From Solobacterium sp. (GTDB lineage Bacteria; Bacillota_I; Bacilli_A; Erysipelotrichales; Erysipelotrichaceae), in contig JAKVKC010000009.1 of the NCBI GenBank assembly GCA_022486705.1, forward strand, positions 1-64,000: a stretch of 64,000 nt of DNA. Direction: 5' to 3'. The translations under genes and the position numbers were made by a program. Numbering within the stretch: the stretch's first letter is position 1; each line of letters begins with the position of its first letter. Shown here piece by piece: positions 1,701 through 54,295 of this stretch. Below the pieces are notes generated by a model. That model was given only the letters and a program-made list of their open reading frames with translations, was not told where the DNA came from and did not search any database.

Positions 1701-2694
1701 GTCCAGCTGCGATGAAACGGCTTGTGCTGTTGTAAAAGATGGAAAGGAAATTCTATCTTCTATCGTATCTTCGCAGATCAATGTACATACCCTGTACGGC
1801 GGGGTCGTACCTGAAGTTGCAAGCAGGATCCATGTAGAAAATATTTCAACAGTCGTTACCGAAGCAGTAAAGAGAAGCGGCGTAACGATGAATGACATTG
1901 ATGCCATCGCCTTCACACAGGGACCTGGACTGATCGGTTCGCTGCATGTCGGTGTCCAGGCAGCTAAGACATTGGCTTGGGAATTTCACAAGCCATTGGT
2001 CCCGATCGATCATATGACAGGACATATCTATGCCAACCGTTTTGCGATTGACCATGATCTGAAATTTCCTCTGCTTGCTTTGGTTATTTCCGGCGGACAT
2101 TCACAGCTTGTATGGATGGCCAATGACTGGGATTTCAAAGTCCTAGGAACGACCAGAGATGATGCCATCGGTGAAGCATACGATAAAGTTTCCAGAGTTC
2201 TTGGTACAGGATATCCAGGCGGTCCAGTGATCGATAAGATGGCAAAGTCTAGCAAGGAGAATTATCATCTGCCGACACCGAAAGTGGATGGCAAATATGA
2301 TTTCTCATTCTCCGGACTGAAGACAGCTGTCTCACAGCTGATTGCGAGAGAAGAGAAAGCAGGCCGTCCGATCATTAAAGAAGATGTTGCGTATGCTTTC
2401 CAGGAAACTGCGCTGAAATCAATGATCGGCAAGACCCTGCAGGCTGTGCAGGATCTGCATCCGGCAATGGTCGTTACGGCCGGCGGAGTTGCAGCCAACA
2501 GCCGCTTAAGAGTGCTGCTGGAAGAAGGCATGAAACAGTTCCCGAAGGTTGAATTATCGCAGCCGCCGATCAAGTTCTGCACAGACAATGCGGCAATGAT
2601 CGGTGCTTCAGGATATATTGCATATAAGCACGGTCTGTTCGGCACCTTTGATGTGGCAGCAGATCCTGGACTGATGATGCCGGGTGAAGAATAA
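1678..2694 (+). CDS. tsaD: tRNA N6-adenosine threonylcarbamoyltransferase TsaD
   Basis: TsaD (Kae1/Gcp) transfers the threonylcarbamoyl group from TC-AMP to A37 of tRNA. The 338-residue protein is the normal length. Visible motifs: N-terminal LALESSCDETACAVV, the metal-binding HMTGH near residue 112, LVISGGHS, and AGGVAANS near the C terminus. Start ATG has AGGAGG about 8 nt upstream, inside rimI. A small hairpin (TCTCG/CGAGA, 2696-2709) follows but has no T run on this strand. Confidence 0.97.
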   Translation: MTMILALESSCDETACAVVKDGKEILSSIVSSQINVHTLYGGVVPEVASRIHVENISTVVTEAVKRSGVTMNDIDAIAFTQGPGLIGSLHVGVQAAKTLAWEFHKPLVPIDHMTGHIYANRFAIDHDLKFPLLALVISGGHSQLVWMANDWDFKVLGTTRDDAIGEAYDKVSRVLGTGYPGGPVIDKMAKSSKENYHLPTPKVDGKYDFSFSGLKTAVSQLIAREEKAGRPIIKEDVAYAFQETALKSMIGKTLQAVQDLHPAMVVTAGGVAANSRLRVLLEEGMKQFPKVELSQPPIKFCTDNAAMIGASGYIAYKHGLFGTFDVAADPGLMMPGEE

Positions 2695-8266: not shown

Positions 8267-10615
8267 ATGAACCTGAAAGAGCTGAAGATCGGGCAGTCTG
8301 CAAAAATGACTGTCATTGGAGGTGAGGGCGAACTTCGTCAGCATTTCCTGGATATGGGCATGATCCCAGGTACGGAAGTAACCGTAACAAAGTATGCACC
8401 AATGGGGGATCCTATTGAAGTCATGCTGCATGGATATGAACTGACGATCCGCTTAGCAGATGCTGAAAAGATCGAAGTAGAGCCAATCAAAGCAGATACA
8501 AAGATATCAAATGCAAAATTAAAAAAAGAAGTTCTTCATCCTGGTCTTGGTGAAGGCGGTATTTATCATGATCGCAAGACAGAACATCCGCTTCCTGAAG
8601 ATACCGTGCTGACTTTTGCTTTAGCAGGAAATCAGAACAGCGGAAAGACAACTCTTTTCAACCAGCTGACGGGTTCCAATCAGCATGTAGGAAACTTTCC
8701 TGGTGTTACGGTCGATCGGAAAAGCGGACAGGTCCGCGGGCATAAGAATACCAATGTGACCGATCTGCCGGGCATTTATTCTCTTTCTCCCTATACAAGT
8801 GAAGAACTTGTGTCACGTGAGTTTATTCTGGATGAAAAGCCAAGCGGCATCATTAATATTGTGGATGCGACGAACATAGAACGAAATCTGTATTTAAGCA
8901 TGCAGCTGATGGAATTGGACAGACCGATGGTCTTAGCGCTGAACATGATGGATGAGATGCGCAATAATGGCGGATCGGTACTGATCAATGATATGGAAGC
9001 TGCTTTAGGCATACCAGTCGTTGCAATTTCCGCAGCCAAAGATGAAGGCATTGATGAACTGATCAATCATGCACTGCATGTTGCAAAATATCAGGAGAAG
9101 CCGGCGCGGCAGGATTTCTGCGATGAGAATGATCATAATGGCGCTGTGCATCGCTGCCTGCATGGCATCATGGATCTGATTGAAGATCATGCATCAGCTG
9201 CCGGTCTGCCGCTGCGCTTTGCGGCTACAAAGGTAGTAGAAGGGGATGAGCGGATAATCAAGGCTCTGAACTTTGAGCAGAATGAAATGGATATGCTGGA
9301 GCATATCATTGAACAGATGGAAGAAGAGCGCGGCTTAGACAGAGCAGCAGCCATTGCCGATATGCGCTATTCCTTTATTGAAAAACTATGTCAGCAGACG
9401 GTCGTCAAGCCAGTGGAATCAAAGGAACATGAACAGTCGCGGCGGATCGATAAAATACTGACGGGAAAATATACAGCGATTCCTTTCTTTATCGGTATCA
9501 TGGGCCTCGTCTTCTTTCTGACCTTTCATGTCATCGGTGCGTTCTTTCAAGGTCTATTGGAAGAAGGTATCAGTGCAGCAACCGGTGCTGTGGATGCATG
9601 GATGACGTCAGTGCAGGTCAACAGTGTTGTTCATTCTTTAGTGATCGACGGTATCTTTACCGGTGTCGGTACGGTGATCAGTTTTGTGCCGATCATTATG
9701 GTACTGTTCTTTTTCCTGTCAATTCTGGAAGACAGCGGATATATGGCACGTGTAGCCTTCGTTATGGATAAGCTGCTGCGCCGGATCGGTCTTTCCGGCC
9801 GAAGTATTGTACCGATGCTGATCGGGTTTGGATGCACAGTGCCAGGCGTCATGTCGGCCCGTACACTTCCTTCTGATCGTGATCGCAAATTGACAATTCT
9901 GCTGACGCCATTCATGAGCTGCAGTGCAAAGCTGCCAATCTATGCTTTCTTAGCCGATGCCTTCTTTCCATCTCAGGCTGGCTGGGTCATGCTTGCTCTG
10001 TACTTCCTTGGCATTGTGATGGCAATCATCGTTGCTCTGCTTTCAAAAGAAACGGTCTTTCATGGTGAAGCAACTCCATTTGTGATGGAACTCCCGAATT
10101 ACAGAATGCCAAGTGCAAAGTCAACATGGATGCTGATGTGGGACAAGGCAAAAGATTTCCTGCAGAGAGCCTTTACCGTCATCTTTGTCGCAACGATCAT
10201 CATCTGGTTCCTGCAGCACTTTGATCTCTCGTTGAATCTTGTATCTGATTCTTCCACAAGTATTCTGGCCATTGCGGCTGGCGGTATTTCGCCGATCTTT
10301 GCTCCATTGGGATTTGGCGATTGGCGCATTGTTACCGCATTGATCACTGGCTTTATGGCAAAGGAATCTGTTGTATCTACGCTCTCCGTATTATTCGGCA
10401 GCACGGCAGAGATCCTCAGTGCAATTACACCGCTGGCTGCGGCTGCATTGCTTGTCTTCTGTCTTCTCTATACACCATGCATTGCTGCTGTTTCTGCCAT
10501 CAAGCGGGAGCTTGGCGCAAAGTGGTCCCTATTCATTGTGCTGTTCCAATGCGCATTAGCTTGGATCATCGCATTCCTTGTTCATTTCATCGGTCTTCTG
10601 ATTGGCTTGGCATAA
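8267..10615 (+). CDS. feoB: Ferrous iron transporter, FeoA-FeoB fusion
   Basis: Imports Fe(II) across the cytoplasmic membrane. Residues 1-75 form an SH3-like FeoA domain (RQHFLDMGMIPGTEV), followed by a linker and a FeoB G domain starting near residue 120: G1 GNQNSGKTT, G3 DLPGIYSLSPYT, G4 NMMD. The membrane part begins near residue 400 with the two Gate regions (FVPIIMVLFFFLSILEDSGYM; LLVFCLLYTPC). FeoA and FeoB are usually separate genes; this single 782-residue frame is an in-frame fusion. AGAGAGGAG precedes the ATG. The following DtxR-type gene starts 3 nt after the stop; no FeoC is visible. Confidence 0.96.
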   Translation: MNLKELKIGQSAKMTVIGGEGELRQHFLDMGMIPGTEVTVTKYAPMGDPIEVMLHGYELTIRLADAEKIEVEPIKADTKISNAKLKKEVLHPGLGEGGIYHDRKTEHPLPEDTVLTFALAGNQNSGKTTLFNQLTGSNQHVGNFPGVTVDRKSGQVRGHKNTNVTDLPGIYSLSPYTSEELVSREFILDEKPSGIINIVDATNIERNLYLSMQLMELDRPMVLALNMMDEMRNNGGSVLINDMEAALGIPVVAISAAKDEGIDELINHALHVAKYQEKPARQDFCDENDHNGAVHRCLHGIMDLIEDHASAAGLPLRFAATKVVEGDERIIKALNFEQNEMDMLEHIIEQMEEERGLDRAAAIADMRYSFIEKLCQQTVVKPVESKEHEQSRRIDKILTGKYTAIPFFIGIMGLVFFLTFHVIGAFFQGLLEEGISAATGAVDAWMTSVQVNSVVHSLVIDGIFTGVGTVISFVPIIMVLFFFLSILEDSGYMARVAFVMDKLLRRIGLSGRSIVPMLIGFGCTVPGVMSARTLPSDRDRKLTILLTPFMSCSAKLPIYAFLADAFFPSQAGWVMLALYFLGIVMAIIVALLSKETVFHGEATPFVMELPNYRMPSAKSTWMLMWDKAKDFLQRAFTVIFVATIIIWFLQHFDLSLNLVSDSSTSILAIAAGGISPIFAPLGFGDWRIVTALITGFMAKESVVSTLSVLFGSTAEILSAITPLAAAALLVFCLLYTPCIAAVSAIKRELGAKWSLFIVLFQCALAWIIAFLVHFIGLLIGLA

Positions 10616-10618
10616 AAT

Positions 10619-11005
10619 ATGCAGCTGGCAAGAAGAGAAAAAGAATCGGTGGAGAATTATCTCGCATCGATCCTGGATATTCAGAAAAGAAATGGCAGGT
10701 GCTATTCGGTAGATGTATCGCATGATCTGAATGTTGCCAAAGCCAGTGTCAGTGTGGCAATGAAAAAGCTGACTGAACAGGATCTTGTCAGCTTTGGAAC
10801 GTCTCATGAACTGATACTGTCAGAAGCGGGACATGCGATTGCCAAAGATGTATTGGCAAAAAGGAAACTGCTGAAAGAAGCATTGATAGCCATCGGTGTC
10901 GATGAAGAAACAGCAGAAACAGATGCACATGAGATTGAACATTCAATCAGCAAAGAGACAAATAAGAAACTATATCAGTACCTCAGAAAGCAGATGAAGA
11001 AGTAA
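10619..11005 (+). CDS. DtxR/MntR-family metal-dependent regulator
   Basis: A 128-residue protein with an N-terminal winged helix (YLASILDIQ, VSHDLNVAKASVSVAMKKL) followed by the DtxR dimerisation region with LSEAGHAIAKDVLAKRKLLKEAL and the metal-ligand-like EETAETDAHEIEHSIS. Length fits the short MntR-like class without an SH3 domain. It is the last gene of the feo operon, only 3 nt after feoB and without a clear Shine-Dalgarno, suggesting coupled translation. Likely represses its own operon through the palindrome at 8225-8244. Fe(II) versus Mn(II) specificity cannot be read here. Confidence 0.87.
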   Translation: MQLARREKESVENYLASILDIQKRNGRCYSVDVSHDLNVAKASVSVAMKKLTEQDLVSFGTSHELILSEAGHAIAKDVLAKRKLLKEALIAIGVDEETAETDAHEIEHSISKETNKKLYQYLRKQMKK

Positions 11006-46907: not shown

Positions 46908-46955
46908 AAAAGGAATCCAAACTGTCTTTATACGGCAGAGCGGATTCCTTTTTTA
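46908..46955. terminator. Bidirectional terminator between the MATE and ArsP_2 genes
   Basis: AAGGAATCC (46910-46918) pairs with GGATTCCTT (46942-46950), with an inner CTGTC/GGCAG pairing; T runs leave on both strands. Confidence 0.88.
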
Positions 46956-47795
46956 TATGAGCGTCAGTATCAGTTCGATCAATAGACCGCCGATCAGGCC
47001 GCAGAGCCATGTCAGGAACATGATCTGGAAATTCTCTTTGAGATCTGGATTGACCCGCCACAGGACCATCATGCCGGTACCGGCATTGACTAACAGCCCA
47101 GCACATACTGCCGCAAAGCCAATCACGCCTTCCAGATACATCTTGGTCAGCAGGATCGAAGAAGCACAGGAAGGGATCATGCCGATCAGCGTTGAAACAA
47201 AGACCGATTGATTTGGATAAGAAGCAACAAATAAGCGCAGGCTGTCTTCCCCGATCCAAGCAACGATCAGGTTGAAGACAAGGGTGATCAGCAGCAGCCA
47301 TACGGCTACCTGCATTGTATGCATGGCAGCCGAATAGAAGATGCCATGCGAATGATCATCATGTTCACGTTCGCAGAATTCTTCCACATCAATGCTGCGC
47401 TTCTTTGAGAACTGATCAATGATGACACCGGCAATGCCGGCCACGATCAGCTTGACGATCAGGATCGGCCAGATCTTGCTGAAAGGTGCCTGCATGCTCA
47501 GCATGATCGAAAGCATCTCATCAGAAGAAGAGAGATAAACAGCAACTAAGGTGCCGGCCGAGATCACGCCGGTCGCAAACAGCGAAGAAGCAGCTCCGGC
47601 AAAGCCGCAGGAAGGGATCAGTCCCATGATCGTTCCCATGATCGGATTCAGCCGGCGATGTTTTTCTAAGAAGTGCTCCATCTTATGACCGGCTTCATGT
47701 TCCATGAATTCCAAGAGCAGATAGATAATAAATAAGAAGGGAATGATCTTAACGACATCGCTCAGGGAATCCAGCAGAATATCGATCAGTACCAT
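46953..47795 (-). CDS. Putative metal (manganese/arsenic-type) exporter, ArsP_2 family
   Basis: A 280-residue membrane protein with about eight to ten helices. Two internally related segments, TIMGLIPSCGFAGAASSLFATGVIS and TLIGMIPSCASSILLTKMYLEG, each contain IPSC, typical for the PF11449 putative 10-TM heavy-metal exporter group. A central His/Glu-rich cytoplasmic loop (EEFCEREHDDHSHG) could bind metal. Substrate is not settled in the family. It overlaps the end of apbE by 10 nt, so the two are one operon. Confidence 0.82.
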   Translation of the reverse strand: MVLIDILLDSLSDVVKIIPFLFIIYLLLEFMEHEAGHKMEHFLEKHRRLNPIMGTIMGLIPSCGFAGAASSLFATGVISAGTLVAVYLSSSDEMLSIMLSMQAPFSKIWPILIVKLIVAGIAGVIIDQFSKKRSIDVEEFCEREHDDHSHGIFYSAAMHTMQVAVWLLLITLVFNLIVAWIGEDSLRLFVASYPNQSVFVSTLIGMIPSCASSILLTKMYLEGVIGFAAVCAGLLVNAGTGMMVLWRVNPDLKENFQIMFLTWLCGLIGGLLIELILTLI

Positions 47796-48922
47796 ATCAG
47801 ATCATCCTTGATGTCATCGGTATAGGTGACAAAATAGCTTCCTTCTGTTTTGCCTGTTTCATTCTGTGTCTTATCAGGATCCATGATCCATACGGCAGAT
47901 ACTTTCTTTCCGGATGCTGCTTCATAAGCAGCCAAAGCCTTTTTGCCATCCGCGACGCTCATCGTAAACAGCGTTGTAGACAGACAGTCAGCGACGCCGG
48001 AATCATCAGCGATGATCGTCACACTGTGGTAGTAGGTGGCAGGAAAGAGGGTCTGCGGATCAATAATATGCGAATAGCGATTGCCGTCGGTCCCGGTATA
48101 GTAGCGTTCATAATCGCCGGAAGTGACAACAGAATAAGAAGGATCCACATCCAGAGCAACTAAAGATTCTCCCGTGGAACTGCCTGGATTGGTAATGCCG
48201 ATGCGCCATTGCGAGCCATCGGCTTTTGCTCCAAGCAGACGGATGTTCCGCCCGACATTGACATACCCGCCGCTGATATTCTGCTTTTCCAGATCGGCAG
48301 CGACCTGTTCTGTGGCATAGCCTTTGGCAATGCCGCCGACATCCAAGGAAACTGCGGCATCGGTGATATAGACGGTACTGGCATCTTCATCAATGATGAC
48401 TTTATCCCAGCCGCTCTCTGTCTTTACTGCATCCAATTCTTCCTGTGAAGGGATCGGACCATTCTGTCCCTGTTCATTCAAGGTGATGCCATTTTCACGA
48501 TATGTATGCCATATCTTAAGAACAGCGCCCATCGTAATATCAAATTCACCATCGGAATAGACATAGAACTGTTTTGCCAGTTTCAGCATATCAATGATCT
48601 TCTGATCGACTTTGACCGGCTGAATGCCTGCATTGTCATTGATCGTCTTCAGATTATTTATACCGTCATAATTGTTATAGATATCATAGAGATCGCTGTA
48701 CTCTTTCAAGGCGGTCAAAGAGCTCTGATAGTGCTCTGCACTTTCATCTGTTTTCGGTGCTTCCTGATATGCGTAAGTGGTATCAAAGATCCCGGCATCA
48801 AGATTTGTATTCTTATATGCTTCTGTGGATGCCGATGCGGAAGAAGCGGGTGCTGTATTTGCGGAACAGCCAGTCAGCAGAAGAGCTGACAGTACGATTT
48901 TGCATATGTTTTTCTTTGTCAT
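47786..48922 (-). CDS. apbE: FAD:protein FMN transferase ApbE (lipoprotein)
   Basis: Attaches FMN covalently to Thr/Ser of target proteins outside the membrane. Signal peptide with lipobox LLTGC, Cys near residue 19. Core motifs: YNNYDGINNLKTIND, the DGEFDITMGAVLKIWH region, VSLDVGGIAKGYATEQVAADL, and TSGDYERYY...YSHIIDPQT. 378 residues. It is divergent from the rnf operon, whose RnfD and RnfG carry flavinylation motifs, so these are the likely targets. The ATG has no Shine-Dalgarno and lies 8 nt after TATAAT (48936-48931). Confidence 0.94.
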   Translation of the reverse strand: MTKKNICKIVLSALLLTGCSANTAPASSASASTEAYKNTNLDAGIFDTTYAYQEAPKTDESAEHYQSSLTALKEYSDLYDIYNNYDGINNLKTINDNAGIQPVKVDQKIIDMLKLAKQFYVYSDGEFDITMGAVLKIWHTYRENGITLNEQGQNGPIPSQEELDAVKTESGWDKVIIDEDASTVYITDAAVSLDVGGIAKGYATEQVAADLEKQNISGGYVNVGRNIRLLGAKADGSQWRIGITNPGSSTGESLVALDVDPSYSVVTSGDYERYYTGTDGNRYSHIIDPQTLFPATYYHSVTIIADDSGVADCLSTTLFTMSVADGKKALAAYEAASGKKVSAVWIMDPDKTQNETGKTEGSYFVTYTDDIKDDLIWY

Positions 48923-49083: not shown

Positions 49084-49111
49084 TCTCTCTGTTTTGATGG
49101 GAGGAGACCAT

Positions 49112-50431
49112 ATGTCATTTTTACAGGGACCGATGAATGAACATCTCAATGGACATAAGGATCTGACGCTGGGCAAGGAAGTCCTGAAGTCAATGGATCC
49201 GGATGTGGTATGGGTGCCGTTATATAACGGAAACGCAGCATGCACACCATGTGTGAAAGTTGGAGATGAAGTTTCGATCGGTACAAAGGTCGCAGAAAGA
49301 AACGACCACTTTTATCTGCCTATCTTCTCGCCAGTATCTGGAACAGTTACCGGCATTGAGAAATTCATGACTTCTGGCATGACGCAGGGTGAACATTTAA
49401 GAATCCAGAATGACCACAAGAACACAGCTGTGCGTGCTTTTGCGGAGTTTGATTATGAAAAGGCCAGCTGGCAGGAACTGCTGGATTTCGTAAAGAACGC
49501 AGGAATGTTAGGACTTGGCGGTGCGGGCTTCCCTACCTACGTCAAGTATATGAAGCCGGAGAACGTGAAGCTGTTCATTGTCAATGCAGTGGAATGCGAA
49601 CCATATCTGACTTCTGACTACAAGAATATTGAAGCCAATCTATCCTTATTGAAAACAGGTGTTCTTGCTCTGTTCAAGCTTTCTAAAGCAGAGAAGGGAT
49701 GCATTGCAATCAAGGAAGATAAGAAAGATCAGATTGCTGCACTGCAGACTGCCTTCAGCGGTACACCGATCGAGATCCGTACGGTACCGGATAAGTATCC
49801 AATGGGCTGGGAGCGTGTGCTGGTCTATGAATTGACCGGAAAGCGCTATGACAGACTGCCGATGGAAGCAGGATGCGTGCTGAACAATGCTTCGACCGCA
49901 ATTGCTTTAGGCGATGCGATCGTCAATGGCATGCCGATCATTCATAAGGTGCTGACCGTTTCAGGCAATGCTCTGAAGCAGCCGCAGAATATTATTGTGC
50001 CGATCGGCACACCTGCTCACGAAGTCATTGAAGCAGTCGGCGGATACGCTGACGGTGTTGATGATGTTCTGGTGATTGCCGGCGGACCGATGATGGGCAA
50101 AGCAATTCCAAATGATACTTTTGTGATCTGTCCGCAGAATAATGGCCTGACAGTTCTGAAGAATGAACCGATCGACAGTGTTGCATGCCTGCGCTGCGGG
50201 AAATGCACAGAACATTGTCCATCTGGCCTGGAGCCAGTCAATATTGCGGCAGCTACAAAGAAGATGGATAAGGATGCTTTGGCTAAATTATCTGTTATGG
50301 ACTGCATTGAGTGCGGTTTATGCACATATGTATGTCCTTCAAAGATCGATGTGACCGAGAATGTCCGCAAAGGCAAGAGGCTCATTCAGCTGCAGATGCA
50401 GAAGGATAAGAAAGCAAAGGGAGGAAAATAA
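49112..50431 (+). CDS. rnfC: Rnf complex subunit RnfC
   Basis: Peripheral NADH-binding subunit of the ferredoxin:NAD+ oxidoreductase. N-terminal RnfC barrel-sandwich region (GDEVSIGTKVAERNDHFYLPIFSPVSGTVTGIE), the flavin/NADH-binding GLGGAGFPTYVKY near residue 137, and two 4Fe-4S motifs CLRCGKCTEHCPSG and CIECGLCTYVCPSK near residues 365 and 404. 439 residues. Start at 49112 has GGAGGAG upstream. First gene of rnfCDGEA. Confidence 0.95.
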   Translation: MSFLQGPMNEHLNGHKDLTLGKEVLKSMDPDVVWVPLYNGNAACTPCVKVGDEVSIGTKVAERNDHFYLPIFSPVSGTVTGIEKFMTSGMTQGEHLRIQNDHKNTAVRAFAEFDYEKASWQELLDFVKNAGMLGLGGAGFPTYVKYMKPENVKLFIVNAVECEPYLTSDYKNIEANLSLLKTGVLALFKLSKAEKGCIAIKEDKKDQIAALQTAFSGTPIEIRTVPDKYPMGWERVLVYELTGKRYDRLPMEAGCVLNNASTAIALGDAIVNGMPIIHKVLTVSGNALKQPQNIIVPIGTPAHEVIEAVGGYADGVDDVLVIAGGPMMGKAIPNDTFVICPQNNGLTVLKNEPIDSVACLRCGKCTEHCPSGLEPVNIAAATKKMDKDALAKLSVMDCIECGLCTYVCPSKIDVTENVRKGKRLIQLQMQKDKKAKGGK

Positions 50432-50433
50432 AC

Positions 50434-51567
50434 ATGAAAATTTCATACAGACCATCCCCGAACTATCGTTCTGAACAGAGCACAACTGGAATCATGTGGG
50501 ACGTCACGTTCTGCCTGCTGGCAGTTCTGCTGTTCTCGATCGTTTGGTACAGTGTATCTTATGGTGCAATGTATGGCTTGAGAGTATTCTTAATGGCTCT
50601 GTTTGCGGTCATTGCGGCCGAAGCTACAGAAGTCATCTGGTTCAAAGCAACGGGCAAGGATTGGAAAGAGATCTTCCATTCCTATGGCTGGGTCACAGCT
50701 TTGATCTTAGTTCTGATCACTCGCTTGGAAGTCAGCTATTATGCTGTCATTGTGGCAACGATCGTTGCTATTATCTTCGGCAAGATGGTATTCGGCGGCT
50801 TTGGCCAGAATATCTTCAACCCAGCAGCTTTCGGCGAAGCATTGATCATGAATTCCTTCAGTGCTTCCGTTGCATCTGATATTTCCACCGGGGCAACCCC
50901 AGTTACAACAATCAAGTCCGCAGGCTGGATCATGGATTCAAGCGCCTTCAGTGCGTTCCTGAGCCAGTTCGGCGGCCTCAAGAGCTTCTTCTTAGGCAAC
51001 TATGCATCCGTCATCGGCGGAAGCTGTGCCCTGCTGCTGATCTTATGTTTCCTTTATTTATTATGGAAGAAGGATATTGATTGGCATCTCAGCGTCAGCT
51101 ATGTTGTCACGATATTTGTTATTTCCGGCATTGTCGGTCTGATGAAGGGTGCAGGCTTTGAATACGGTCTGTTCAACGTCATCAGCGGCGGTGTGCTGTT
51201 CGGTGCTGTCTTTATGATGACAGATCCTGTATCAACGCCAGTTACCATCGGCGGCAGAGTCGTCTTTGGCATCTGCACAGCCTGCCTGACTCTGGTCATC
51301 CGCTGGCGGAGCAATCTTCCGGATGGTGTCCTATTCTCTATCTTATTAATGAACATGCTGACACCGGCAATCGATAAGGCATTCTCTGGCAATCAGATCA
51401 AGAATGCTTCCGCATTTATGAAGCGGGCAGTTATTATTTCTGTCATTGCTATTGCAACTGCTTTCTTTGTCGGCTCTATGCTTGCTCCTAAGACATCTTC
51501 AACGACAGCTGCTGTGCAGGAGAATCCAGCAGCCGAGATCACTGACATATCTGTCAGTGAAATGTGA
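50434..51567 (+). CDS. rnfD: Rnf complex subunit RnfD
   Basis: Membrane subunit homologous to NqrB, 377 residues with about nine to ten helices. The flavinylation motif reads STGATPVT near residues 150-157, placing the FMN-bearing Thr outside the membrane. FGGFGQNIFNPAAFGEALIM and the MTDPVSTPVTIGGRVVFGI block are typical. GGAGG lies before the ATG, 2 nt after rnfC. Confidence 0.95.
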   Translation: MKISYRPSPNYRSEQSTTGIMWDVTFCLLAVLLFSIVWYSVSYGAMYGLRVFLMALFAVIAAEATEVIWFKATGKDWKEIFHSYGWVTALILVLITRLEVSYYAVIVATIVAIIFGKMVFGGFGQNIFNPAAFGEALIMNSFSASVASDISTGATPVTTIKSAGWIMDSSAFSAFLSQFGGLKSFFLGNYASVIGGSCALLLILCFLYLLWKKDIDWHLSVSYVVTIFVISGIVGLMKGAGFEYGLFNVISGGVLFGAVFMMTDPVSTPVTIGGRVVFGICTACLTLVIRWRSNLPDGVLFSILLMNMLTPAIDKAFSGNQIKNASAFMKRAVIISVIAIATAFFVGSMLAPKTSSTTAAVQENPAAEITDISVSEM

Positions 51568-51581
51568 GGAGGGTACGAACA

Positions 51582-52541
51582 ATGGACAAAAATTCCAGTA
51601 TGTATAAAACGATCCTCTTAGCTGTTGTATGTTCAGTGGCAGGTGCCTGCTTGGCAGCTGTCAATGCAGTAACAAAACCGATCATCACGGACAATGCACT
51701 TGCAGCAGTTAAAACAACATTGAATCAATTCTATCCGGATGGCACTTTCTCAGATGTTACATCTAAGTATGTTACCAAGGATACAGATCTTGTTGACGGC
51801 GTCTATGAAGCAGAAGGAAAAGGCTATATCTTTACGCTTCATAACACAGGATACAGTTCTTCCGGCTTCAAGTTCGCCATTGCTTTCAACAATGACGGTA
51901 CGATCGAGGGCTATATGGCTCTGGAACAGCAGGAGACTTCCGGCAAAGGATCCTTGGCTTTTGATCAGGATTATGCGGATGAAGTGAAAAAGCTTACTTC
52001 TCTTGATGCAATGCCTTTGATCTCAGGCGCTACGATCACAACAAGTGCCGTCGGTGCCGCGGTAAAACAGGCTGAGACGATCTTCAATTCAATTGCCAAT
52101 ATTTCTGGCGAACCTGCTTCTCAGGCTTCTGCTTCTGCCGAAGCATCAAGCGGTGCGACCACAAACAGCGGTGCAACATCAAGTGCTTCTGCATCCTCTG
52201 GTGCGAAAACTTCGGATACACTTGGAACGGGCGATTATGCCAGTGCCAAAGCATCCTGCACAGCTACTTCTTCCGGTGCCTTTGCCTGCCGCGCAACAGG
52301 ATTTGACGGTGCAGATGTCACTGCAACGATCCTCGTTAAGGACGGTGCTATCACTTCGATCAAAGATCTGACGGGCAAGGACAATGGCGATGGCATGGGA
52401 GATGCATGGTACTCTGATGCTTCTGTCTTCAATGGCGCAACCTTAGATTCATCCATTGATGCAATGTCAGGTGCTACATTTACTTCAAAAGCCGTAAAAG
52501 GCATGGCAGCCGCAGCGCTTAAAGCTGCAGCTCAGCAATAA
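51582..52541 (+). CDS. rnfG: Rnf complex subunit RnfG with two FMN-binding domains
   Basis: Residues 1-30 form a membrane helix; a first FMN-binding domain (about 50-170) ends in PLISGATITTSAV, a flavinylation motif. A linker of about 40 residues rich in Ser, Ala, Gly and Thr follows (about 176-215), then a second FMN-binding domain (about 216-319) ending in DAMSGATFTSKAV, again with D-x-x-SGAT-x-T. Usual RnfG has one such domain and about 200 residues; 319 here reflects the duplication. Start at 51582 has GAGGAGGG upstream; the longer frame begins inside rnfD. Confidence 0.94.
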   Translation: MDKNSSMYKTILLAVVCSVAGACLAAVNAVTKPIITDNALAAVKTTLNQFYPDGTFSDVTSKYVTKDTDLVDGVYEAEGKGYIFTLHNTGYSSSGFKFAIAFNNDGTIEGYMALEQQETSGKGSLAFDQDYADEVKKLTSLDAMPLISGATITTSAVGAAVKQAETIFNSIANISGEPASQASASAEASSGATTNSGATSSASASSGAKTSDTLGTGDYASAKASCTATSSGAFACRATGFDGADVTATILVKDGAITSIKDLTGKDNGDGMGDAWYSDASVFNGATLDSSIDAMSGATFTSKAVKGMAAAALKAAAQQ

Positions 52542-53218: not shown

Positions 53219-53794
53219 ATGAATCTATTTGCCTTATTCATCAGCGCAATGCTGATCAATAACATTGTCTTGACCAAGTTCTTAGGCATGTGCCCATTCA
53301 TGGGCGTTTCCACCAAGCTGGATTCTGCTGTCGGCATGGGTGCTGCTGTTATCTTCGTTATCTTCGGTGCTTCGGTTCTGTCATGGTGCTTATACTACTT
53401 TGTATTGGTACCGCTGCAGTTGGAGTATATGGAACTGATCACCTTCATTCTGCTGATTGCAGCGTTTGTTCAGTTCGTTGAATTATTCTTAAAGAAGTAT
53501 TCACCAGGACTGTACCGTCAGCTCGGTATCTATCTTCCGCTGATCACGACCAACTGCACAGTTCTGTATGTTGCACAGGAAAACATCACAAAGAATTATG
53601 ATATCTTCCAGACAATGGTCAATTCCATTGCGACCCCAGCAGGATTTATGCTGATGCTGGTCATCTTTGCTACGATCCGTGAAAGACTTCAGGGCAGCAG
53701 TATTCCTAAGCCATTCAAGGGAAATCCGATTGCCTTTGTCGTTGCAGGCATTATGGCAATTGCCTTCTCTTCTCTTGCGGGCCTGGTTGGATAA
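53219..53794 (+). CDS. rnfA: Rnf complex subunit RnfA
   Basis: Six-helix membrane subunit homologous to NqrE and RnfE, 191 residues. LFISAMLINNIVLTKFLGMCPFMGVS and LPLITTNCTVLYVA carry the two conserved Cys of the intramembrane iron-sulfur/iron site shared with RnfE. GGAGG lies in the end of rnfE, 2 nt before this gene's ATG region. Confidence 0.95.
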   Translation: MNLFALFISAMLINNIVLTKFLGMCPFMGVSTKLDSAVGMGAAVIFVIFGASVLSWCLYYFVLVPLQLEYMELITFILLIAAFVQFVELFLKKYSPGLYRQLGIYLPLITTNCTVLYVAQENITKNYDIFQTMVNSIATPAGFMLMLVIFATIRERLQGSSIPKPFKGNPIAFVVAGIMAIAFSSLAGLVG

Positions 53795-53797
53795 ACA

Positions 53798-53992
53798 ATG
53801 AAAGTTTTAATTGCGATCGTACTTGTGGCAGGCCTGTTCCTTCTGAATGTATTTCTCTTTCGGAAGAACAAGCATACGCCTGTGCCGAAGGGCTGTGAGA
53901 ATCTCACACCGGACTGCGGGAGCTGCGGCATGTCAGACTGTACGTCAAGAATGAAACCGATAAGAAAAGAGGAAGATGATGGTAATCATTAA
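53798..53992 (+). CDS. Small single-pass membrane protein with four Cys in the rnf operon (NqrM-like layout)
   Basis: A 64-residue protein: one N-terminal membrane helix (residues 2-21), a short basic stretch, then Cys at 33, 40, 43 and 48 (C-x6-C-x2-C-x4-C) and a charged tail. It starts 3 nt after rnfA and overlaps rnfB by 17 nt. NqrM, a small one-helix protein with clustered Cys, is needed to mature the iron centre of NqrD/NqrE, the homologs of RnfE/RnfA. A similar job for Rnf is inferred from layout and position only. Shine-Dalgarno is weak; coupling to rnfA is likely. Confidence 0.75.
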   Translation: MKVLIAIVLVAGLFLLNVFLFRKNKHTPVPKGCENLTPDCGSCGMSDCTSRMKPIRKEEDDGNH

Positions 53993-54267: not shown

Positions 54268-54295
54268 AAGAGACCTTCAAATGGAGGTCTCTTTT
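54268..54295 (+). terminator. Intrinsic terminator of the rnf operon
   Basis: AAGAGACCT pairs with AGGTCTCTT, followed by T residues. Confidence 0.9.

Follow-up and report, generated by a model that had tools for sequence, protein, structure and literature searches.

The window analysed here, the first 64,000 nucleotides of contig JAKVKC010000009.1 from a Solobacterium sp. genome that is approximately 92% complete, contains an operon for Rnf, on which many anaerobes rely as their chief respiratory ion pump. Pfam and NCBIfam assignments give the gene order rnfC-D-G-E-A-sORF-B, where sORF denotes a small cysteine-rich open reading frame (Table 1). The listed start of rnfC is a TTG codon, and the true start may lie further downstream. 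RnfA has Cys25 and Cys113, both invariant among the aligned relatives, which in A. woodii RnfA coordinate the [2Fe-2S] cluster within the membrane (PMC11889175). The hairpin that follows rnfB is likely to be the operon terminator.

Several neighboring features of the window deserve mention. A gene for an ArsP_2-type putative heavy-metal exporter (46953-47795, minus strand) overlaps the start of apbE and, like it, is divergent from the rnf operon. RnfG is far longer in some relatives (749-756 residues in L066, L069 and L071), where it resembles the multi-flavinylated RnfG reported previously (PMC8238504). Elsewhere in the window, a FeoA-FeoB fusion protein of 782 residues (8267-10615) is followed by a small gene resembling a DtxR/MntR-type metal regulator (10619-11005), and no FeoB-associated cysteine peptide was seen beside the fusion.

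Table 1. Coordinates of the rnf operon and its flanking features in the window.
Feature	Position	Strand	Basis
apbE flavin transferase, divergent from the rnf operon	47786..48922	-	Pfam/NCBIfam
rnfC, 445 aa, 4Fe-4S dicluster domain	49094..50431	+	Pfam/NCBIfam
rnfD, 377 aa	50434..51567	+	Pfam/NCBIfam
rnfG, 325 aa, two FMN-binding stretches	51564..52541	+	Pfam
rnfE, 220 aa	52554..53216	+	Pfam/NCBIfam
rnfA, 191 aa	53219..53794	+	Pfam/NCBIfam
sORF, 64-aa Cys-rich single-helix protein	53798..53992	+	ORF, ATG start; MKVLIAIVLVAGLFLLNVFLFRKNKHTPVPKGCENLTPDCGSCGMSDCTSRMKPIRKEEDDGNH
rnfB, short form, 95 aa	53976..54263	+	one PF04060 FeS domain, 45.9 bits, E 4.5e-12
11-bp hairpin and short T run, directly 3' of rnfB	54268..54293	+	-18 kcal/mol, z -5.4

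The sORF begins after a gap of 3 nucleotides from the rnfA stop codon (53792-53794), and its 3' end overlaps the rnfB start at 53976 by 17 nucleotides. The encoded protein is defined by a helix at residues 2-25, Asn24, a TP-P-GC motif at residues 27-33 and cysteines at positions 33, 40, 43 and 48. The initial annotation had described a 64-residue one-helix protein with these four cysteines, placed between rnfA and rnfB, and the reading frame, the coordinates and AlphaFold2 modeling all agree with that description. Using a 42-row alignment, AlphaFold2 gave a single helix for residues 2-25 (block pLDDT 83-97), whereas the cysteine tail was left without a confident fold. Modeling of an in-frame RnfA-sORF readthrough fusion with 26 rows, aimed at contacts between the two proteins, gave a mean pLDDT of 64 and a pTM of 0.54, with the cysteine tail below 50, values too uncertain to place such a contact. 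The basic residues that follow the helix suggest, by the positive-inside rule, that the cysteine tail lies on the cytoplasmic side. The C-terminal histidine was considered as a metal ligand in the Solobacterium genome and was dropped: it was not counted as a metal-ligand motif because the ...GNH end is dictated by the overlapping start of rnfB.

The sORF is a real gene, more than a chance open reading frame. It was found in 86 of 100 relatives searched at E<=1, in 55 of these at E<1e-11, and substitution counts between close pairs over the 55 codons outside the rnfB overlap (pS 0.13-0.70 vs pN 0.00-0.13) show that it is under strong purifying selection. Among 42 sequences drawn from two families, no variation was seen at N24, T27, P28, P30, G32, C33, C40, C43 or C48. 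The expectation that all four cysteines would be conserved is upheld for these 42 sequences and fails for the family as a whole, where the first cysteine is lost in members L150, L154, L164, L166, L167 and L169, and only N24, P30, C40, C43 and C48 are invariant. Outside the motif the sequence drifts fast. As far as could be found, the family is undescribed and lacks a curated name; a search of the open-access literature, with subscription papers outside its coverage, gave no report of the sORF gene or of a short RnfB.

The predicted linkage of the gene to rnf was confirmed by the gene-neighborhood survey. The sORF lies between rnfA and rnfB in all 30 same-genus loci, and this slot is kept across two families of the order. 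Scanning all GTDB r220 contigs with a pattern derived from the sORF motif gave 80 loci, from hosts that include Erysipelotrichaceae, Solobacterium, Bulleidia, Holdemanella, Faecalicoccus, Longibaculum, Beduini, Acholeplasmatales and others. Motif conservation in these 80 loci is true by construction, as the search pattern includes TP-P-GC; the neighborhood is independent of the pattern, and was rnfA-sORF-rnfB in 79 of them. At locus L126 the contig ends before rnfA, leaving only the sORF and rnfB visible.

The tie to rnf extends to other genomes of the class. Much of the data consists of metagenome-assembled genomes, and in a class survey of 296 genomes, with species sampled unevenly, RnfA was detected in 166 and a sORF profile match in 140. 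The sORF was present in 135 of the 166 rnfA-positive genomes vs 5 of the 130 rnfA-negative ones (Fisher p 5e-46, uncorrected for kinship), and a looser RnfA threshold also gave none in those five. A broader profile (A3) recovered the sORF in 10 of the 31 RnfA-positive misses at E<1e-5. Degenerate copies, in which the helix is followed by CxxCx2-3C, lie between rnfA and rnfB at L134, L254 and L242, and no convincing copy was found in the short-RnfB genomes G315, G341 and G354 of family f17. Scanning at the level of the phylum, and within it, gave sORF matches that were all from the same class.

Copies of the sORF in other settings were also observed. One locus of G030 (L113, also recorded as L047) carries a sORF without rnf nearby, and L247-L249 (G302, G351 and G283) are copies in genomes without detected rnfA; some of the genomes behind these copies are incomplete. 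At L168 in G140, a second sORF copy (2151-2348, minus strand) lies approximately 0.8 kb downstream of rnfB on the same contig.

The sORF has a site outside the rnf operon, yet still co-occurs with rnf, in families f4, f17, f20 and f22 and in some of f6. These unlinked copies (L161-L166 and L255) sit in conserved housekeeping clusters, of either a phosphoglucomutase (pgm)/uracil-DNA glycosylase (ung)/nitroreductase type or a dCMP deaminase/AspRS/HisRS type, and the rnf operon of these genomes is without a sORF. When mapped onto an RnfA tree, the linked or unlinked state changes at least two times with presence kept, and one change of sORF presence suffices. As the Fisher p-value ignores kinship, this relocation with retention is a better argument than the Fisher test.

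The initial annotation had missed that the 95-residue RnfB of this operon is short and without ferredoxin domains. The window RnfB consists of a membrane helix and one [4Fe-4S] relay domain (PF04060), with the ferredoxin-docking domains absent, and aligns to A. woodii RnfB only over A. woodii residues 11-77. The relay 'B8' domain of A. woodii RnfB comprises residues 30-100 (PMC11889175), and structurally characterised RnfB proteins carry two to seven C-terminal clusters (PMC12174285). A frameshift or assembly error was ruled out as the cause of the shortening, as a hairpin lies directly 3' and the relatives are equally short; with a likely terminator right after rnfB, the protein is not continued downstream. 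Among 141 loci with a linked sORF, drawn from two collections that share some genomes, RnfB has 87-119 residues in 139 and 180-183 in two, and the ferredoxin motif was found in none. In the bacterial class of the sORF, a short RnfB seems to be the usual form. Longer, ferredoxin-free RnfB proteins, listed at 184-187 residues, were observed in family f9 (L152:4504-5055, plus strand, and L168:3128-3688, minus strand), and that of L168, when scanned, has two tandem PF04060 FeS domains and no ferredoxin domain.

Ferredoxin-type RnfB, of 188-429 residues, belongs to loci in which no sORF is linked; those examined come from three Clostridia, Fusobacterium, gamma-proteobacteria and genus g95 of the same class. 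No convincing sORF copy was found in whole Acetoanaerobium, Fusobacterium and Neisseria records, nor in those of Monoglobus (0.5 Mb) and Vescimonas (0.9 Mb), the weak profile match in Monoglobus being RnfB itself, and the Clostridia loci have no gene between rnfA and rnfB. Within family f6, genus g95 (L133 and L238-L241) has a Clostridia-type Rnf with a long ferredoxin-type RnfB and no sORF, whereas the other f6 genera tested have a short RnfB and an unlinked sORF. The Rnf of g95 was apparently acquired or retained separately, and all RnfA sequences from long-RnfB loci form one clade (SH-aLRT 97). The contrast within f6, together with this clade, indicates that the sORF tracks the Rnf type rather than the host. 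The partnership of the sORF with short-RnfB Rnf is well supported and, as the sORF is found almost only with Rnf that lacks the docking domains, it probably serves this Rnf variant as a dedicated helper or an additional part.

The initial annotation had also proposed the sORF as a counterpart of NqrM, the maturation factor of Na+-NQR, which acts on NqrD and NqrE, homologues of RnfE and RnfA (PMC12174285). NqrM (DUF539, PF04400) is likewise a small protein with one N-terminal helix and a cysteine cluster, encoded beside an Rnf/Nqr operon; NqrM genes accompany nqr and apbE, and the sORF differs in going with rnf rather than nqr, and only with short-RnfB Rnf. A relationship by descent did not survive the profile checks. 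PF04400 matched 0 of 42 sORF members at E<=10 and was absent from all 296 class genomes, with profile matches in two control records as the positive control. For direct comparison we used eight NqrM-type sequences from nqr loci on plasmid-collection records, in which the first cysteine is the only invariant one, whereas the sORF family keeps the last three instead. Cys33, the first of its cluster, was reportedly the one essential cysteine of V. harveyi NqrM in a 2016 study. Profile-profile comparison at full length gave Prob 52, and the cysteine regions scored 11.0 against a shuffled null with a mean of 8.7 and a maximum of 19.9. NqrM homology was rejected on the strength of Pfam, the genome scans with their positive controls and the profile-profile comparison; the sORF may act in a broadly NqrM-like manner without being an NqrM.

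Two other families resemble the sORF more closely in profile comparisons. The FeoB-associated Cys-rich family PF12669 was the best sub-threshold Pfam family (17.7 bits vs a gathering cut-off of 27), matching 18 of 42 sORF members at E<=10 with a best value of 2.6e-4, and gave the top profile-profile match (Prob 93). Both have one helix and a CxxC-type cysteine cluster, but the sORF adjoins rnfA and rnfB rather than feoB, and the FeoA-FeoB fusion lies 43 kb off. Membership of this family was rejected on the sub-threshold score, the different neighborhood and the separate copies in the same genomes, such as a weak PF12669 match at G000:C2:7765 in the genome studied here. The RnfB N-terminus (Prob 86) shares with the sORF a helix followed by CxxCGx3C, but the sORF has no counterpart of the fourth, downstream cysteine in the FeS domain or of the remainder of RnfB, and coexists with a separate rnfB. 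PF04060 gave no match to the sORF, and TIGR01944 scored 14 bits (cut-off 68.7).

Once the helix is left out of the comparison, the matches to RnfB and to the FeoB-associated family still outscore all 60 column shuffles (24.6 vs a best shuffle of 23.4 for the cysteine region of the RnfB N-terminus), while the NqrM match falls below its best shuffle; since the compared proteins are short, such profile comparisons prove no descent. A search of all PDB chains, including Rnf structures 7zc6, 8ahx and 9eri, gave no match to the sORF profile at E<=10. By description only, RnfH of Azotobacter vinelandii is also a small extra Rnf protein found in some lineages; it differs in that neither a cofactor nor homologues in other complexes are listed for it (PMC12174285).

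We propose, with a rough probability of 0.45, that the sORF may be an accessory (assembly) factor of short-RnfB Rnf, whose most likely function would be the delivery or assembly of iron or Fe-S units. The helix would be placed beside RnfA, RnfE and RnfB, with the C-terminal CxxCx4C motif in the cytoplasm, where the protein may hand an iron or Fe-S unit to a cytoplasm-facing cluster site, or hold that site open. Candidate target sites are the membrane [2Fe-2S] cluster of RnfA/RnfE and the RnfB relay cluster. For Rnf with a full-length RnfB, help of this type might be unneeded or supplied by something else.

The siting of unlinked copies in housekeeping clusters argues for an accessory factor, for which it is usual, and is unusual for a stoichiometric subunit. 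The drift outside the motif also favors this reading. NqrM and the FeoB-associated proteins, likewise, are built from one helix with a cysteine cluster, and a motif that can be shortened and can lose its first cysteine suits transient metal handling better than a fixed relay cluster. On the other side, the tie to the lost ferredoxin domains of RnfB would be explained no less well by a role in electron entry, three f17 genomes with a short RnfB gave no convincing copy, and common ancestry might be all that joins the sORF to short-RnfB Rnf, given that the tree needs a single change of sORF presence. A general role in RnfA/RnfE maturation is unlikely, because the sORF goes only with Rnf lacking the ferredoxin-docking domains of RnfB; such a role predicts a sORF with every Rnf, which the Acetoanaerobium, Fusobacterium and Neisseria records contradict.

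The tie to docking-domain loss opens an alternative role in electron entry, in which the membrane-anchored sORF protein would count as a seventh subunit of Rnf, either bearing a cluster or contributing, beside the short RnfB, to a docking site for ferredoxin or another donor. We regard this as possible, if rather doubtful. It is consistent with the position of the gene between rnfA and rnfB, with the separation of linked sORF loci (0/141 with a ferredoxin motif in RnfB) from long-RnfB loci, with the CxxCx4C motif common to the sORF and the RnfB FeS domain, and with the resemblance of its profile to the RnfB N-terminus, including the weak Monoglobus match to RnfB. However, only three cysteines are invariant, the CxxCx2-3C of L134, L242 and L254 would be poor for a fixed [4Fe-4S] relay, and the sORF lies outside the rnf operon in several families. 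Furthermore, the short RnfB keeps its relay cluster to RnfA/RnfE, so that electrons could enter directly. We would give even odds to the wider proposal that the whole class uses Rnf without RnfB docking domains, with the sORF as a seventh component enabling electron entry or cluster assembly.

A redox-inert role for the sORF, structural or regulatory, seems distinctly improbable; in this reading its helix would stabilise the RnfA/RnfE/RnfB interface while the cysteine tail senses iron or oxidation to control turnover. Roles of this kind have been proposed for the small cysteine peptides of Feo systems (FeoC-like; PMC8749426), and both the fast drift outside the motif and the strict conservation of N24 and P30 at the edge of the membrane would fit, but the pairing with a short RnfB is left unexplained. 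A true NqrM orthologue acting on RnfA/RnfE is very improbable indeed: the shared layout of one helix, a basic linker and GC...C-C...C and the full-length match favor it, but the empty PF04400 searches, the cysteine-region score within the null and the different invariant cysteines do not.

In a 2025 review, NQR alone has a named maturation protein (PMC12174285), and the sORF, tied to one Rnf type, is a concrete candidate for a role in inserting the intramembrane [2Fe-2S] cluster of Rnf. The short RnfB, with only its relay cluster, has fewer than the two to seven C-terminal clusters that the review gives for structurally characterised RnfB, which draws attention to the electron donor. The two Rnf types, full RnfB without a sORF and short RnfB with one, offer a natural comparison.
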